33,997 bases of DNA from an uncultured Flavobacteriales bacterium. Its GTDB lineage: Bacteria; Bacteroidota; Bacteroidia; Flavobacteriales; Flavobacteriaceae. The stretch covers positions 1 to 33,997 of the forward strand of contig CAJWCT010000007.1 of the NCBI GenBank assembly GCA_913031385.1. The letters are read 5' to 3'. Shown here one piece after another: positions 1,318-10,167 of this stretch. Position 1 is the stretch's first letter. Each line of letters starts with the position of its first letter. The notes below the pieces were generated by a model, which did not search any database, had not been told where the DNA came from, and was given only the letters and a program-made list of their open reading frames with translations. A program made the translations under genes and the position numbers.

Positions 1318-1947
1318 ATGCCAATTATTCGAATAATAAAACCGAATGATAATACCATAGTTGGTATTTGGAAGATTACAGAAACTCTCGATAATTTATC
1401 TAAATCGGTTAGCCTTTCTTCTACATCTAAAGAATTATTGAAAAACAGAAAGAGCAAAGTTCATAAATTACAATTTCTAGGTGTTAGAGCTATTTTACTT
1501 GAACTCGGGTATTCTGTAGATAGTTTATCTTATCAAGACAATACGCCGATATTAAATGACAGCAAAAAAATATCTATAAGTCATTCAAATTTATTCTCTT
1601 GTGTAATAATTAGTGATTTAAGGGTAGGAATTGATGTTCAGCAAGAAGATAATAATAAAATTAGAACGATTGCCAAAAAATTTATTGGATATGAAACTTC
1701 ATACTTAACACATGACGATTTTAAAAGGAAATCAATAATTTGGAATATTAAGGAATCAATTTATAAGATTGCCAATATTATAGGGCTAGATTATAAAACC
1801 CATTTATTAGTAGTCCCATTTAATTTATCTGATAATTTTACATACTCATGGCTTATATATAAAAACCTAAAGGAACGCTATGCATCTTATTTTTTTACAA
1901 TAGAAAATTATAGTTTTGCATATTTAATACATGCAGATGATGAATGA
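1318..1947 (+). CDS. 4'-phosphopantetheinyl transferase superfamily protein
   Basis: 209 residues with the two signature motifs of Sfp/AcpS-type transferases: VGIDVQ (D106, Mg binding) and WNIKESIYK (142-150; catalytic K145, E146). Enzymes of this family move the phosphopantetheine arm of CoA onto a serine of carrier proteins (acyl-carrier protein, or peptide/polyketide carriers), activating them. The N-terminal half carries the weak SxSHS segment (86-90) typical of the fold. The end overlaps the start of the next gene (transporter) by 17 bases, suggesting translational coupling. No carrier protein or synthase is nearby, so a housekeeping ACP role is most likely. Confidence 0.88.
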   Translation: MPIIRIIKPNDNTIVGIWKITETLDNLSKSVSLSSTSKELLKNRKSKVHKLQFLGVRAILLELGYSVDSLSYQDNTPILNDSKKISISHSNLFSCVIISDLRVGIDVQQEDNNKIRTIAKKFIGYETSYLTHDDFKRKSIIWNIKESIYKIANIIGLDYKTHLLVVPFNLSDNFTYSWLIYKNLKERYASYFFTIENYSFAYLIHADDE

Positions 1948-2572
1948 AATTTATAATTTTTTTTTAGAGGCATATTCAAATTCTCCTACTTACATAATTG
2001 TACTTGAATTTCTTGCATTTATTTTTGGAATAATAAGCGTAGTTTATGCAAAAAAAGAAAACATATTGGTATATCCAACAGGAATTATTTGTACTGTTAT
2101 TACAATATATCTTCTATATAGGGCTCAATATTTTGGAGATATGATGATGAATGTATACTATTCTGTAATGAGCATATATGGATGGTGGAATTGGTCTAGA
2201 GTTAAGGATAATCACTACATAATTTTAATCTCTAAAACAAATAAAAAGGAATATTTGATAGCATCTTTTTTCTTTTTACTAACAATTGTAATTACATTTT
2301 CTGTTTATAAAATGAACTTAGATTCTCTTGAAATACCAAATTATATTGACATTTTTACTTCTGGTATTTTCTTTACAGCTATGTGGTTAATGGCAAACAA
2401 GAAAATTGAAAGTTGGATATTTTGGATTATTGGCGATATAATAACAATACCTTTATATAGTTATAGAGGTTTAGGTATACTATCTTTACAATATTTAATT
2501 TTTCTGATATTAGCAATACAAGGATATTACGAATGGAAAAAAACCTTAAACAAACAAAATCAAACTGCATAA
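1931..2572 (+). CDS. pnuC: PnuC family vitamin (nicotinamide riboside or thiamine) transporter
   Basis: 213 residues with about seven hydrophobic segments and the PnuC core: LVYPTGIICTVITIYLLY, then YFGDMMMNVYYSVMSIYGWWNW, including the aromatic WWNW motif at the substrate site. PnuC proteins are SWEET-like facilitators for nicotinamide riboside; the PnuT branch carries thiamine and is typically TPP-riboswitch linked. Here the following genes are a NadR-like kinase and then a TPP-riboswitch-controlled outer-membrane receptor, so both substrates are plausible. It overlaps its neighbours at both ends (17 and 40 bases). In-frame Met codons at 1937 and 1940 are alternative starts. Family certain, substrate open. 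Confidence 0.9.
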   Translation: MQMMNEIYNFFLEAYSNSPTYIIVLEFLAFIFGIISVVYAKKENILVYPTGIICTVITIYLLYRAQYFGDMMMNVYYSVMSIYGWWNWSRVKDNHYIILISKTNKKEYLIASFFFLLTIVITFSVYKMNLDSLEIPNYIDIFTSGIFFTAMWLMANKKIESWIFWIIGDIITIPLYSYRGLGILSLQYLIFLILAIQGYYEWKKTLNKQNQTA

Positions 2573-3099
2573 AGGTTGTTTTATTTGGTCCAGAGTCTAC
2601 TGGAAAGACAACTTTGGCTCAAAAACTAGCCAGACATTACAATTCAGTCTGGGTTAGAGAGTATGCAAGAGAATATCTGCAGAACAAATGGAATAATCAA
2701 AGAAAAACTTGTGAACCAAATGATCTAATTGAAATTGCTAAAGGTCAAATTAGCTCAGAAAATGAACTATCTCAAAAAACTAATACAGTTTTAATCTGTG
2801 ATACAGATTTATTGGAAACTAAGGTATATTCAGAATCATATTATTCTGGCACATGTGATCCAACTATAGAAAAATATGCTATAGAAAACACCTATGATTT
2901 ATATTTTCTAACATACATTGATGTGCCATGGGTTAAGGACGATCTTAGGGATAAACCAAATGAGAGACTAGAATCTTTCAATACTTTTGAAAGAGCATTA
3001 ATTAAATATAACCGGCCATATGTTATTTTAAGAGGCAGCAAACAAGAAAAATTAGATTTAGCCATTAATCATATTGATAATCTTATAAAAAATAAATAA
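2533..3099 (+). CDS. Stand-alone NadR-like kinase (ribosylnicotinamide kinase-type P-loop ATPase)
   Basis: 188 residues. Walker A GPESTGKTTLA lies at about 19-29, followed by VREYAREYL, a motif characteristic of the kinase half of NadR, and LICDTDLLETKVYSE as the Walker B/substrate region. NadR proteins of other bacteria are usually about twice as long because they carry an N-terminal NMN adenylyltransferase domain; that domain is absent here. The expected role is to phosphorylate, and so trap, the compound brought in by the adjacent PnuC protein. The start overlaps pnuC by 40 bases and no other ATG precedes the P-loop, so tight translational coupling is likely. Substrate could be nicotinamide riboside or, given the adjacent TPP riboswitch, thiamine or a precursor. 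Confidence 0.85.
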   Translation: MEKNLKQTKSNCIKVVLFGPESTGKTTLAQKLARHYNSVWVREYAREYLQNKWNNQRKTCEPNDLIEIAKGQISSENELSQKTNTVLICDTDLLETKVYSESYYSGTCDPTIEKYAIENTYDLYFLTYIDVPWVKDDLRDKPNERLESFNTFERALIKYNRPYVILRGSKQEKLDLAINHIDNLIKNK

Positions 3100-3110
3100 A
3101 TTTGATATAA

Positions 3111-3182
3111 AATCTGGGGTGCTTAAGGCTGAGATTATACTCATTGAACGTGACTAAGTAATTTTAGAAACGGAAAACCAAA
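3111..3182 (+). promoter_or_regulatory. TPP (THI-box) riboswitch, divergent
   Basis: The conserved TPP-aptamer order is visible. TGGGGT (3115-3120) pairs with ACTCA (3139-3143) as P2 with one extra G, as in E. coli thiM. GCTGAGA (3128-3134) is the pyrimidine-sensing motif. GAAC (3146-3149) follows. A P5 stem, CTAA (3154-3157) with TTAG (3164-3167), encloses a GTAATT loop in place of the usual GATAAT. GGAAA follows at 3172-3176. The P4 bases differ from consensus on both sides (CGT 3149-3151 with ACG 3170-3172), which keeps pairing. P3 is minimal and P1 is unclear. It lies 20 bases before the receptor ATG, so TPP probably blocks translation. Confidence 0.82.
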
Positions 3183-3202
3183 GCATTCAAAAATTTATTC
3201 TA

Positions 3203-5419
3203 ATGAAAAAAATTATAGGCTGCTTTTTTTTATCAATATTCTGTTCTTATTCTCAAATTACAGAGAAAGATTCTTTAAAAATTATAGATGTTCATTTAGA
3301 AGAGGTTGTAGTTGCAGCCTTTAGAGCATCAGATGATACACCTGTTACCTATTCAGAAATAACTAGAGAAGAATTACGACCATTCAATATTGGGCAGGAT
3401 ATCCCTACATTGCTAAAATACACACCGGGCGTTATTACTCATAGTGATTCTGGAAATGGCATTGGATATTCAGCTATGCATATTAGGGGCTCTGATGAAA
3501 CTAGGATAAATGTCACAATTAATGGAATTCCATTAAATGATGCAGAATCTCTAAATTCTTATTGGGTTGATCTTCCAGATTTGTCTTCTTCAGTTAACAA
3601 CATTCAGATTCAAAGAGGTGTTGGAACTTCAACGAATGGAGCTGGTGCTTTTGGAGGAAGTATAAATATTCTAACAGATGTTCATTCCAATGAACCTATA
3701 GGTGAATATTCAAATTCATTTGGGAGCTATGGAACTCTAAAAAATACATTTAATTTTTCAACAGGGCTTTTAAATGATAAAATAGAGTTTAGCGGTAGGC
3801 TATCAAAAATTGAATCAGATGGATATATTGATAGAGCTAGTTCTAATTTAAGATCTTATTTTCTTCAAGCTATATATGAGACTGATGAAACTGTATTAAA
3901 GTTTTTAAATATGGCTGGACATGAAATTACCTATCAATCTTGGTATGGTATTGACGGAGCTACTTTAGAAAATGACAGAACATATAACCCTGCTGGCTTA
4001 TATACTGATGATGAAGGTAATATACACTTTTATGATAATCAGGAGGATAATTATAAGCAAGATCACTATCAATTTCATTGGAATCAAAGACTAAATAATA
4101 ATTGGGTCTCTAATTTTAGTTTACACTATACTTATGGAAGAGGGTATTATGAAGAATATGTCGAAGATCAACACATGGAAGATTATGGTTTAGATCATAA
4201 CGATGAAGAGGAAGAAGAGGAAGAATTAACCGATCTTATTAGAAGAAAATGGTTGGATAATGATTTTTATGGTACAGTTTTCAATTTTATTAAGACTACC
4301 AACAAGTACGAATTAGTATTGGGAGGATCCTGGAATAATTATTATGGAAAACACTTTGGTGAAGTAATATGGGCTAGACATGCTGGTGAATCTGAGATCA
4401 GACATAAGTATTATGACCTTTATGGAGATAAAACAGAACTAAATCTATATTCAAAATTAGATTACCATTTAAACGAAAAAATTTCATTATTTGCGGATCT
4501 TCAATTAAGAAGTATTAATTATGATGCTAGTCTTCCAGGTGAATTTGCGACTCATGATGGACATGTGCATGGGAACCCAGGAGATATTCCATTAGAAGCA
4601 ATAGATAAAAAATACAAATTTTTTAATCCTAAACTTGGTATTTATTATAAAATGGATAGCAGAAATGAGTTTTATTTTTCTTTTGCCAGAGCTAATCGTG
4701 AGCCTACAAGAACCGATTTTTCAAATGGGAATCCCAATCATGAGGAATTAGATGATTTTGAATTGGGCTATAAAAGCAAAACCAATAATTCTCAGTCTAA
4801 GGCTAATTTATATTTCATGAATTACACTAATCAATTAGTTTTAACTGGACAGATTGATGATGTAGGTAATAGAATTAAAACTAACAGTGGTAAAAGCTAC
4901 AGATTAGGTGTAGAAATTGAAGACACTAGAAGTTTAGGCAATAAACTTTCATTATATACTAATATTACGGGAAGCATAAATAAAAACAAGGATTTTTATT
5001 ATGTATATGATGGAGAATTACAAAATTTTGGAGATACTGATCTTTCATTTTCTCCAAATTTAATTGGTGTAATTTCTTTTAATTATGAACTTATAGAGAA
5101 TCTAGACCTGAGTTTAAATACAAAATATATTTCAGATCAATACATGTCAAACATAAACTCTAATACATCAAAATTAGATTCATTTACTATTGTAGATTTA
5201 AATGTATTCTATCAATTTTCAATACCTGAGTTAATTGATAATGTTTCTGTGAGCTTATTAGTTAATAATTTATTCAACAAGTTATATGTTAATCATGGCT
5301 ATCATTACACCTATGATGATACATGGTCAGATCCTAATCAAATAGTATCAATTGAAGGTGTTGGATATTATCCTCAAGCTACACGAAATTATTTGTTAGG
5401 AATTACTTTTAGGTTTTAG
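3203..5419 (+). CDS. TonB-dependent outer-membrane receptor, probably for thiamine or a related compound
   Basis: 738 residues: signal peptide (about 1-17, MKKIIGCFFLSIFCSYS), a TonB-box-like stretch and plug domain (about 30-155, with IPTLLKYTPGV, MHIRGSDETRINVTINGIPLND and GAGAFGGSINI), then a beta-barrel ending in the C-terminal aromatic GITFRF expected for BAM insertion. There is no N-terminal carboxypeptidase-like domain and no SusD partner, so this is a vitamin/siderophore-type receptor, not a glycan one. The TPP riboswitch directly upstream points to thiamine, its phosphates or precursors. Extracellular-loop candidates include an acidic run DEEEEEEE (about 334-341) and a His-rich HDGHVHG segment. 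Its last bases overlap the convergent gene by four. Confidence 0.92.
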   Translation: MKKIIGCFFLSIFCSYSQITEKDSLKIIDVHLEEVVVAAFRASDDTPVTYSEITREELRPFNIGQDIPTLLKYTPGVITHSDSGNGIGYSAMHIRGSDETRINVTINGIPLNDAESLNSYWVDLPDLSSSVNNIQIQRGVGTSTNGAGAFGGSINILTDVHSNEPIGEYSNSFGSYGTLKNTFNFSTGLLNDKIEFSGRLSKIESDGYIDRASSNLRSYFLQAIYETDETVLKFLNMAGHEITYQSWYGIDGATLENDRTYNPAGLYTDDEGNIHFYDNQEDNYKQDHYQFHWNQRLNNNWVSNFSLHYTYGRGYYEEYVEDQHMEDYGLDHNDEEEEEEELTDLIRRKWLDNDFYGTVFNFIKTTNKYELVLGGSWNNYYGKHFGEVIWARHAGESEIRHKYYDLYGDKTELNLYSKLDYHLNEKISLFADLQLRSINYDASLPGEFATHDGHVHGNPGDIPLEAIDKKYKFFNPKLGIYYKMDSRNEFYFSFARANREPTRTDFSNGNPNHEELDDFELGYKSKTNNSQSKANLYFMNYTNQLVLTGQIDDVGNRIKTNSGKSYRLGVEIEDTRSLGNKLSLYTNITGSINKNKDFYYVYDGELQNFGDTDLSFSPNLIGVISFNYELIENLDLSLNTKYISDQYMSNINSNTSKLDSFTIVDLNVFYQFSIPELIDNVSVSLLVNNLFNKLYVNHGYHYTYDDTWSDPNQIVSIEGVGYYPQATRNYLLGITFRF

Positions 5420-8534: not shown

Positions 8535-9347
8535 ATGATGTTAAAAGAAAAGGATTTTATTTTTTTTGATGATAAAGAAAAATTTTTAAAAATTTTAAAA
8601 AGTAAGCTTCCTAGCAAAAAATATAAAAAGACAATTGACAGACTTAATTATAATAAGGAATTATTATTTCTGCAATCCAGACTTGTAGATCTTCAGAACT
8701 ACATCAAGAGTGAGAAGATGAGGGTATGTATTATATTTGAGGGAAGAGATGCTGCAGGTAAGGGAGGGGCAATCAAACGTTTTACACAACACCTTAATCC
8801 AAGAAATTCTAGAATTGTTGCGCTTCCTGAACCAACTATAGAAGAAAAAGGCCAATGGTATTTTAGACGATATATGAGAGCGATGCCTAACCCTGGTGAA
8901 ATAGTATTTTTTGATAGAAGTTGGTATAATAGAGCTGTAGTTGAGCCAGTTATGGGTTTTTGCACAAATCGAGAATACAGCACTTTTATGTCTCAGGTAA
9001 ATGAATTTGAAAACATGTTAATTGATGATGGAGTTCAAATAATTAAATTTTGGTTTTCAATAACAAAATATGAGCAGAAGAGACGTTTTAAAAAAAGAAT
9101 GACAAATCCACTGAAATCATGGAAATTTAGCAATGTAGATATGGAGAGCCAGAATAGATGGGAGATATACACAAAATACAAAAACCAAATGTTTAACAGA
9201 TCAGGTACAAATATTTCTCCTTGGATTAATATTAAAAGTAATAATAAATTAACAGCAAGGATAGAATCAATAAAATATGTTTTATCAAGATTCGAAATGT
9301 CTAAAAGTAATATTTTGCTAGATAAAAACATTATAAGTTCAATTTAA
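8535..9347 (+). CDS. ppk2: Polyphosphate kinase 2 (PPK2), copy 1
   Basis: 270 residues. Walker A EGRDAAGKGGAIKR has G70, G75 and K76; the lid region PRNSRIVALPEPT follows, then QWYFRRY and the Walker-B-like FFDRSWYNRAVVEPVMGF (D127, R128). This is a one-domain PPK2, which uses polyphosphate to phosphorylate nucleoside diphosphates (or the reverse); class I (ADP/GDP) is the closest match by motif and length. It is followed 13 bases later by a second PPK2 that aligns without gaps through the catalytic core. Start choice: ATG 8535, with a second ATG immediately after (8538). Confidence 0.94.
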   Translation: MMLKEKDFIFFDDKEKFLKILKSKLPSKKYKKTIDRLNYNKELLFLQSRLVDLQNYIKSEKMRVCIIFEGRDAAGKGGAIKRFTQHLNPRNSRIVALPEPTIEEKGQWYFRRYMRAMPNPGEIVFFDRSWYNRAVVEPVMGFCTNREYSTFMSQVNEFENMLIDDGVQIIKFWFSITKYEQKRRFKKRMTNPLKSWKFSNVDMESQNRWEIYTKYKNQMFNRSGTNISPWINIKSNNKLTARIESIKYVLSRFEMSKSNILLDKNIISSI

Positions 9348-9360
9348 AAATATTATAATA

Positions 9361-10167
9361 ATGAACGGCAGTCTTTCAGACAAGGAACTAAAATTATTGA
9401 ACTCCAACAAAGGATTAGTAAATTTATTAGACAGGCATAATACATCTATTGCTAAAACTATAAAATATGTAAAATATGAATCTGAATTAAAGAAGCTACA
9501 ATCGGAGATGATTAAACTTCAAAATTGGGTATATGATAATAAAATGAAAGTTGTTATCATATTTGAGGGAAGAGATGCTGCAGGTAAGGGAGGCGCAATA
9601 AGAAGGGCTGTAGAACATCTTAATCCAAGAAGACTAAAAGTAATAGCTCTCCCAAGACCAACAAAAACTCAAAGTTCTCAATGGTATTTCCAAAGATATG
9701 TAGAATGCCTACCTAAGGAAGGAAATATGGTGTTTTTTGATAGAAGTTGGTATAATAGAGCGGTTGTCGAACCAGTTAACAAATTTTGTACAGATAATGA
9801 ATACAACATTTTTATGTCTCAGGTAAATGAATTTGAAAAGATGTTAATTGATTCAGGATTTTATCTTTTAAAATTTTATTTTTCAATAAGTAAGGAAGTT
9901 CAGCTTAAAAGATTTAATGAAATAAAAAATAGCCCAATAAAGAGATGGAAATATACTAAAGTGGATAAAAAAGCTCAAAGACTATGGAAAGAATATTCTT
10001 ATTATAAGGATGTTATGTTTAAAAAAACAAACACTAAAATTTGTCCGTGGAATATTATTCAAGCTAACAAGAAAATATATGCCAGAATGAAGGCTGTTAG
10101 TATGATTTTAGAAACCATTCCCTATGATAAAAACTATAAAATAATGACAGAAAAGATAGATTTTTAG
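9361..10167 (+). CDS. ppk2: Polyphosphate kinase 2 (PPK2), copy 2
   Basis: 268 residues, same architecture as the preceding gene: Walker A EGRDAAGKGGAIRR at the same residue numbers (G70, K76), PRPTKTQSSQWYFQRY, FFDRSWYNRAVVEPVNKF (D127), QVNEFEKMLIDSG. Both frames keep a constant 826-base offset from the start codons through at least residue 160, so no gaps are needed. The N-terminal 60 residues and C-terminal 80 differ substantially between copies while the core is near-identical, including at the DNA level. Substrate preference may therefore differ (ADP versus GDP or NMP), but that cannot be read from the sequence. The 3' end overlaps truB by four bases. Confidence 0.94.
   Translation: MNGSLSDKELKLLNSNKGLVNLLDRHNTSIAKTIKYVKYESELKKLQSEMIKLQNWVYDNKMKVVIIFEGRDAAGKGGAIRRAVEHLNPRRLKVIALPRPTKTQSSQWYFQRYVECLPKEGNMVFFDRSWYNRAVVEPVNKFCTDNEYNIFMSQVNEFEKMLIDSGFYLLKFYFSISKEVQLKRFNEIKNSPIKRWKYTKVDKKAQRLWKEYSYYKDVMFKKTNTKICPWNIIQANKKIYARMKAVSMILETIPYDKNYKIMTEKIDF

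Follow-up and report, generated by a model that had tools for sequence, protein, structure and literature searches.

The window analysed here is the whole stretch of 33,997 nucleotides of contig CAJWCT010000007.1 (assembly GCA_913031385.1) from an uncultured Flavobacteriales bacterium. On its forward strand, the gene of a TonB-dependent receptor of 738 amino acids is preceded by a leader with a contracted TPP-type aptamer, and upstream of the leader lie the genes of a PnuC-family transporter and of an AAA_28 kinase-like protein (Table 1). The original prediction had assigned positions 3111-3202 to the aptamer. The element does lie within this span, but the span corresponds to the whole leader and the aptamer proper occupies only about 3115-3174, with 28 bases between its 3' end and the start codon of the receptor. 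The core motifs that had been named were found in the sequence in the expected order (TGGGGT at 3115, GCTGAGA at 3128, GAAC at 3146 and GGAAA at 3172), and so was the P2 stem with its single G-U pair. The loop was correctly read as GTAATT, which differs little from the GTAATG that is usual in the class described below.

Table 1. Features of the locus in the window, and TPP-like matches in related genomes that lie away from the receptor and lack the J5/4 CG
Feature	Position	Strand	Basis or remark
PnuC-family transporter	1931..2572	+	PF04973, TIGR01528; upstream of the switch, outside its control
Kinase-like protein (AAA_28), akin to the kinase domain of NadR	2533..3099	+	PF13521; NadR structure matches; upstream of the switch
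TAAATTTG, likely promoter -7 box (TAnnTTTG)	3097..3104	+	box at similar spacing in 66/78 loci; putative transcription start a few bases further on
Contracted TPP-type aptamer	3115..3174	+	RF00059, 35.7 bits; hold-out model R2, 63.5 bits
P2	3116-3118 with 3140-3142	+	three pairs, one G-U
P3	3121-3123 with 3127-3129	+	sequence; inner P3 pairs in 57/57
UGAGA T-loop	3130-3134	+	invariant in alignment; with P2/P3 the pyrimidine-sensing side (3116..3142)
P4, CGU/ACG	3149-3151 with 3170-3172	+	covariation
P5, CUAA/UUAG	3154-3157 with 3164-3167	+	covariation
U-turn loop GUAAUU	3158-3163	+	sequence
Internal loop GA/AA	within 3149..3172	+	occupies the place of the canonical J5/4 CG; CG in 0/57
AGCAUUC, possible anti-P2 strand	3182..3188	+	complementary to 3117-3123, 7 pairs
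Possible start-codon hairpin	3180..3226	+	z -1.08 in the window (31/200 shuffles as good)
TonB-dependent receptor, 738 aa	3203..5419	+	PF00593, PF07715
Off-receptor match without CG (L154)	G018:C19:91537-91629		
Off-receptor match without CG (L057)	G032:C3:241600-241700		
Off-receptor match without CG (L047)	G036:C1:627266-627353		

The aptamer was detected with the Rfam model of the TPP riboswitch, RF00059. When a 401-base stretch was searched with 4227 families, this model gave a full-length match at 3105-3191 with 35.7 bits and an E-value of 1.7e-5, and in a search of the whole genome the E-value was 1.2e-5. The score is below the Rfam gathering score of 54.3 bits, so a default Rfam scan of the window lists nothing; taken formally, this is the outcome that the original prediction had named as speaking against it. 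A covariance model of 55 relatives (R2), from whose training the window and its sister were left out, found the window aptamer with 63.5 bits and an E-value of 2.3e-16 over 69 kb, the E-values of such class models being rough. The sister copy, at locus L072 of the MAG SI047_bin123, belongs to a receptor 93-94% identical to that of the window and scored 65 bits with the same model. A chance match was ruled out by the E-values and the hold-out model. The proposed arrangement, a TPP-type aptamer in front of a TonB-dependent receptor, is supported by the RF00059 match and by the receptor domains PF00593 and PF07715. The folding energy of the aptamer alone was no better than that of shuffled sequences in the window (z -0.26) or in the sister (z -0.76). 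One other RF00059 match in the genome of the window (1.21 Mb, 72% complete), with 12.6 bits and an E-value of 6, was taken as chance and not as a second TPP element.

The window aptamer lacks both P1 and the CG dinucleotide of J5/4, two losses that the original prediction had not pointed out. The occurrence of this CG was compared at 80 RF00059 places in 60 related genomes and the genome of the window, of which 54 were receptor-linked and 21 unlinked; two weak unlinked places and three without fetched sequence were left out. The CG was absent in 51 of the 54 receptor-linked aptamers (retained in G021, G027 and G050), whereas the unlinked aptamers of at least 24 bits kept it in 18 of 21 cases (absent in G018, G032 and G036). 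The automatic count for linked places of at least 24 bits had given 49 without and 4 with CG and was adjusted by eye to 51 and 3: G045 was moved to the group without CG because the pattern match lay in its 5' flank, and the weak linked match of G038 (20.4 bits) was read as lacking it. The Fisher test applied counts related genomes as independent. Among the named receptor loci, the CG was missing in 75 of 77 aptamers, or in 76 of 78 with the window added. Thirteen genomes, read by eye, hold both kinds: before the receptor they carry a form without CG, and elsewhere one that has it. Three TPP-like matches of 47-65 bits that lie away from the receptor also lack the J5/4 CG (Table 1).

An alignment was made of 57 of the 78 sequences, leaving out those with P3 inserts of more than 17 nt, with Ns or identical to others. 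None of the 57 has CG at the J5/4 place. Instead, a covarying base pair usually fills it: the pair that replaces 61-77 is a standard one in 42 of 57 sequences (GC 23, AU 16, CG 1, GU 1 and UA 1) and non-standard in 15, the window included. One position further in, every one of the 57 sequences forms a standard pair, and five pair types occur there. The UGAGA and UAAU loops and U59-A80 are invariant, G60 is a G in 53 sequences including the window, and P2 and the inner P3 are paired in all 57. In total, 97.5% of the 798 alignment cells pair, so the relatives keep the stems, as the original prediction had proposed to check. Of five pairing measures, four outdid every one of 500 shuffles and the other outdid 497 of them, a test that is inflated by relatedness, and the true register of the alignment was better than every slid register. 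P1, in contrast, was at the chance level: 74 loci had 1.7 of the 5 pairs versus 1.83 with shuffled partners (1.94 of 5 at 51 places before the receptor in related genomes), whereas 20 unlinked aptamers had 4.25 of 5 pairs versus 3.47 when shuffled.

By the features tested, the element is not a canonical TPP riboswitch, and it has the same frame. With RF00059 and the E. coli thiM riboswitch (2gdi) as described in PMC3764141 it shares P2 and P3 with the UGAGA T-loop, the P4/P5 arm with a U-turn UAAU loop, U59-A80 and mostly G60, and probably a thiamine gene context. It departs from them in lacking P1 and the C77-G78 of J5/4, where usually a base pair stands, in an often short P3 and, for the window, in a score under the Rfam cut-off. 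The double-sided changes in P4 (CGT/ACG) and P5 (CTAA/TTAG) that had been reported are real. Two of these pairs, the G-C in the middle of P4 and one U-A in P5, are C-G in the class and occur only in the window and the sister among the 57 aligned sequences. For these two pairs the word "drifted" holds, but 51 of the 54 receptor-linked aptamers share the contracted form; most of the divergence of the window aptamer is class-wide, so that the emphasis on drift was misplaced.

The CG of J5/4 corresponds to C77-G78 of thiM. In the thiM account these two residues contact Mg and the pyrophosphate and are listed among the highly conserved, ligand-side bases (PMC3764141). Most of the receptor-linked copies seen here lack this conserved dinucleotide of a textbook aptamer; either the pocket can be built differently or the ligand is no longer the same. 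With a changed ligand, the contracted class would keep the pyrimidine pocket, have its pyrophosphate pocket dismantled and sense thiamine, TMP or HMP but no longer TPP, leaving the canonical form to other genes of the same genomes. The partition of the CG between linked and unlinked aptamers, the co-occurrence of both kinds in 13 genomes and the position of the contracted aptamer before an uptake gene would fit such a change, but it is opposed by the retention of G60, U59-A80 and the loop and by the three receptor-linked aptamers of related genomes that keep the CG.

A match to the receptor was found in 58 of the 60 related genomes, many of these matches being weak or paralogous, and a long match with an E-value of 1e-136 or better in 51. 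At each of the 54 receptor loci compared, from these genomes and that of the window, the aptamer stands upstream of the gene. In the 80 named loci a pattern search found it upstream of the receptor in 77, and the three loci without it hold just 8, 2 and 0 upstream bases. A class model (R1) matched 354 of 394 Bacteroidota genomes drawn, canonical aptamers being matched as well. The best 30 matches were all contracted, 29 before a receptor homologue and one (G403) not. Another 40 fetched matches, including five already present in the first set, comprised 8 contracted and 32 CG-bearing aptamers; the calls in both sets were made by eye. The 8 contracted ones are spread over five families that belong to the same class but to other orders, and CG forms also occur in two of these families. 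The contracted form is typical of Flavobacteriales.

Ten of the 32 CG aptamers precede receptor homologues with 38-47% identity, so the CG is likely to be the older state at the receptor. These receptors of other families behind CG forms argue against a changed ligand. So does the contracted aptamer of G403 (L211), which precedes thi4, encoding ADP thiazole synthase (TIGR00292, 291 bits versus a cut-off of 148), and is the only contracted copy that was seen in front of a biosynthesis gene. Among 17 receptor-free loci translated downstream of the aptamer, six that were examined with family models gave ThiC (three) or a PnuC-family protein (three) as the product encoded behind the unlinked aptamer, and one locus gave the thi4 product. 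On this evidence we regard a ligand other than TPP as possible but unlikely. The same low chance is given to its more specific form, in which the contracted, P1-less aptamers of Flavobacteriales are a natural class for a thiamine vitamer free of pyrophosphate, most likely thiamine itself. If that were true, the contracted form would monitor the uptake of the intact vitamin, and in some of these genomes the canonical TPP form would monitor the finished cofactor. The element is probably responsive to a vitamer of B1, and most likely the ligand is TPP, bound in a rearranged pocket.

Upstream of the receptor, AAA_28 is encoded in 58 of 80 loci, PnuC in 50 and both in 49, and GreA is found downstream in 46; these counts are lower bounds, as the loci span 3 kb or less per side. 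The common order is PnuC, AAA_28, aptamer, receptor. No match to ThiC, TMP-TENI or TPK was found in the six genomes of the genus, which are 65-84% complete, and PnuC was found in five of them. Six misses for each protein, despite the incompleteness, make B1 auxotrophy likely, and uptake of B1 is therefore expected in this genus. TPK (PF04263) was found in 6 of the 60 Flavobacteriales relatives and in 5 of the 47 of good quality. AAA_28 might be a thiamine (pyrophospho)kinase that has so far escaped recognition. The receptor had no sequence relatives in the PDB at an E-value of 0.001. The link of the element to vitamin B1 that had been predicted is supported, and from its context we infer that the receptor takes up B1.

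The best solved relatives of the two upstream neighbours are PnuC and NadR, and their joint presence at so many loci could point to an NAD-linked ligand. Both genes, however, lie upstream of the switch, the UGAGA of the pyrimidine pocket is invariant, CG-type TPP aptamers too are followed by PnuC-family genes in three cases, and a contracted aptamer stands before thi4. An NAD-linked ligand is therefore highly implausible. Further downstream, at 8535-10167, the window contains two tandem genes for PPK2 polyphosphate kinases.

A similar arrangement is known from Bacteroides thetaiotaomicron, where the TonB-dependent receptor OMthi, the outer-membrane thiamine transporter, lies behind a TPP riboswitch; strains deleted for thiamine biosynthesis are reported to depend on it when thiamine is scarce (PMC5613172). 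The resemblance, judged from the published description, extends to the TPP-type switch before the receptor and to a PnuC-family transporter in the system. In that description pnuT lies with tnr3 under TPP switches (PMC5613172), whereas here the switch comes after PnuC and AAA_28, and no TPK was found.

We take TAnnTTTG to be the -7 box of Bacteroidota. In 66 of 78 loci such a box has its end 9-19 nt upstream of the aptamer, versus 3 of 311 control stretches; with 63 occurrences in the window for 61 expected, the motif is not enriched by number alone. If it is the -7 box, the RNA would begin immediately before the aptamer, and a start at the aptamer's edge would explain the absence of P1.

Downstream of the aptamer, the anti-P2 complementarity had a p-value of 0.10 in the window and 0.005 in the sister. 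Across the loci, p was at most 0.05 in 29 of 76 and the median z was -1.6, and the anti-P2 sequence tracks the 5' strand: AAAGGGG occurs with CCCCUUU, UAAAUGGGGUGCU with GUAUCCUAUUU and AGGGGGUGCU with AGCACUCCU. Two CG-type loci gave no anti-P2 signal (p over 0.9). The free leader of the window folds with the anti-P2 strand paired (z -1.98; 9 of 200 shuffles as good). In the window and the sister this strand can alternatively pair into the first codons and form a hairpin around the AUG, which in the sister had a z of -2.85 (4 of 200 shuffles as good). No terminator-like site was found at 2950-3300, and transcription attenuation was ruled out on this ground.

These observations suggest how the switch may operate. 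P2, P3 and the conserved UGAGA T-loop would form the pocket for the aminopyrimidine ring, and the P4/P5 arm retains its U-turn loop, U59-A80 and mostly G60, having lost the J5/4 CG, usually in favour of a base pair. Without ligand, the strand 3' of the aptamer would base-pair with P2/P3 on their 5' side, undoing the aptamer. With ligand, the freed strand would pair into the first codons, the AUG would be held in a hairpin and translation of the receptor would be lowered. The direction of switching is the weakest step of this proposal. When the aptamer was imposed in constrained folding, the AUG was not closed: its unpaired probability went from 0.64 to 0.67 in the window and from 0.19 to 0.75 in the sister, the opposite of an OFF switch. 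The mean unpaired probability of the start region remained at 0.47 in the window and fell from 0.47 to 0.35 in the sister. Constrained folding therefore does not support the OFF direction. Ligand-dependent masking of the start still appears the likeliest mechanism, partly unsupported as it is.

The window's own copy might be decaying and have lost its switching within a functional class. Its P2 contains a G-U pair and its extra P5 position an A-A, the sister has the stronger anti-P2 strand and start hairpin, and the aptamer energy resembles that of shuffled sequences. On the other hand, the double-sided changes in P4 and P5 and all invariant bases are retained in both copies. Between window and sister, 4 of 60 aptamer sites, counted by eye, and one indel had changed, compared with 33 of 220 fourfold sites in the receptor; the slower change of the aptamer reaches only a weak p of 0.04. 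We give decay a small chance. The sequences suggest that the receptor was exchanged along with its switch: in a receptor tree of 71 rows, the window grouped with L072 and L073 (SH-aLRT 99) apart from its genus-mates L092 and L150, and the flanking genes are 75-89% identical to those of the genus-mates (L092, L148 and L150) but the receptor only about 50%.

Taken together, the element is a real and probably a working riboswitch, and our favoured reading, held with fair though not firm confidence, is a reduced TPP-type switch that controls translation of a B1-uptake receptor, with a thiamine vitamer, most likely TPP, as its ligand. Sensing of a thiamine-pathway compound other than TPP has a precedent in the HMP-PP riboswitch (thiS motif), which is described as a small aptamer embedded in a terminator and for which no sequence resemblance is claimed here (PMC6478431). 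We found no earlier account of the contracted variant in the open-access literature, and a prior description is possible. A search with RF00059 described in PMC10881298 reports several Bacteroidota clusters without described systems for B1 synthesis and transport. In part, surveys may see flavobacteria without B1 uptake because, of the 51 contracted switches before the receptor, 50 score below the Rfam cut-off. In several marine members (L104, L108, L115 and others) P3 is reduced to a C-UACG-G hairpin, which we take to be a tetraloop of the UNCG type.
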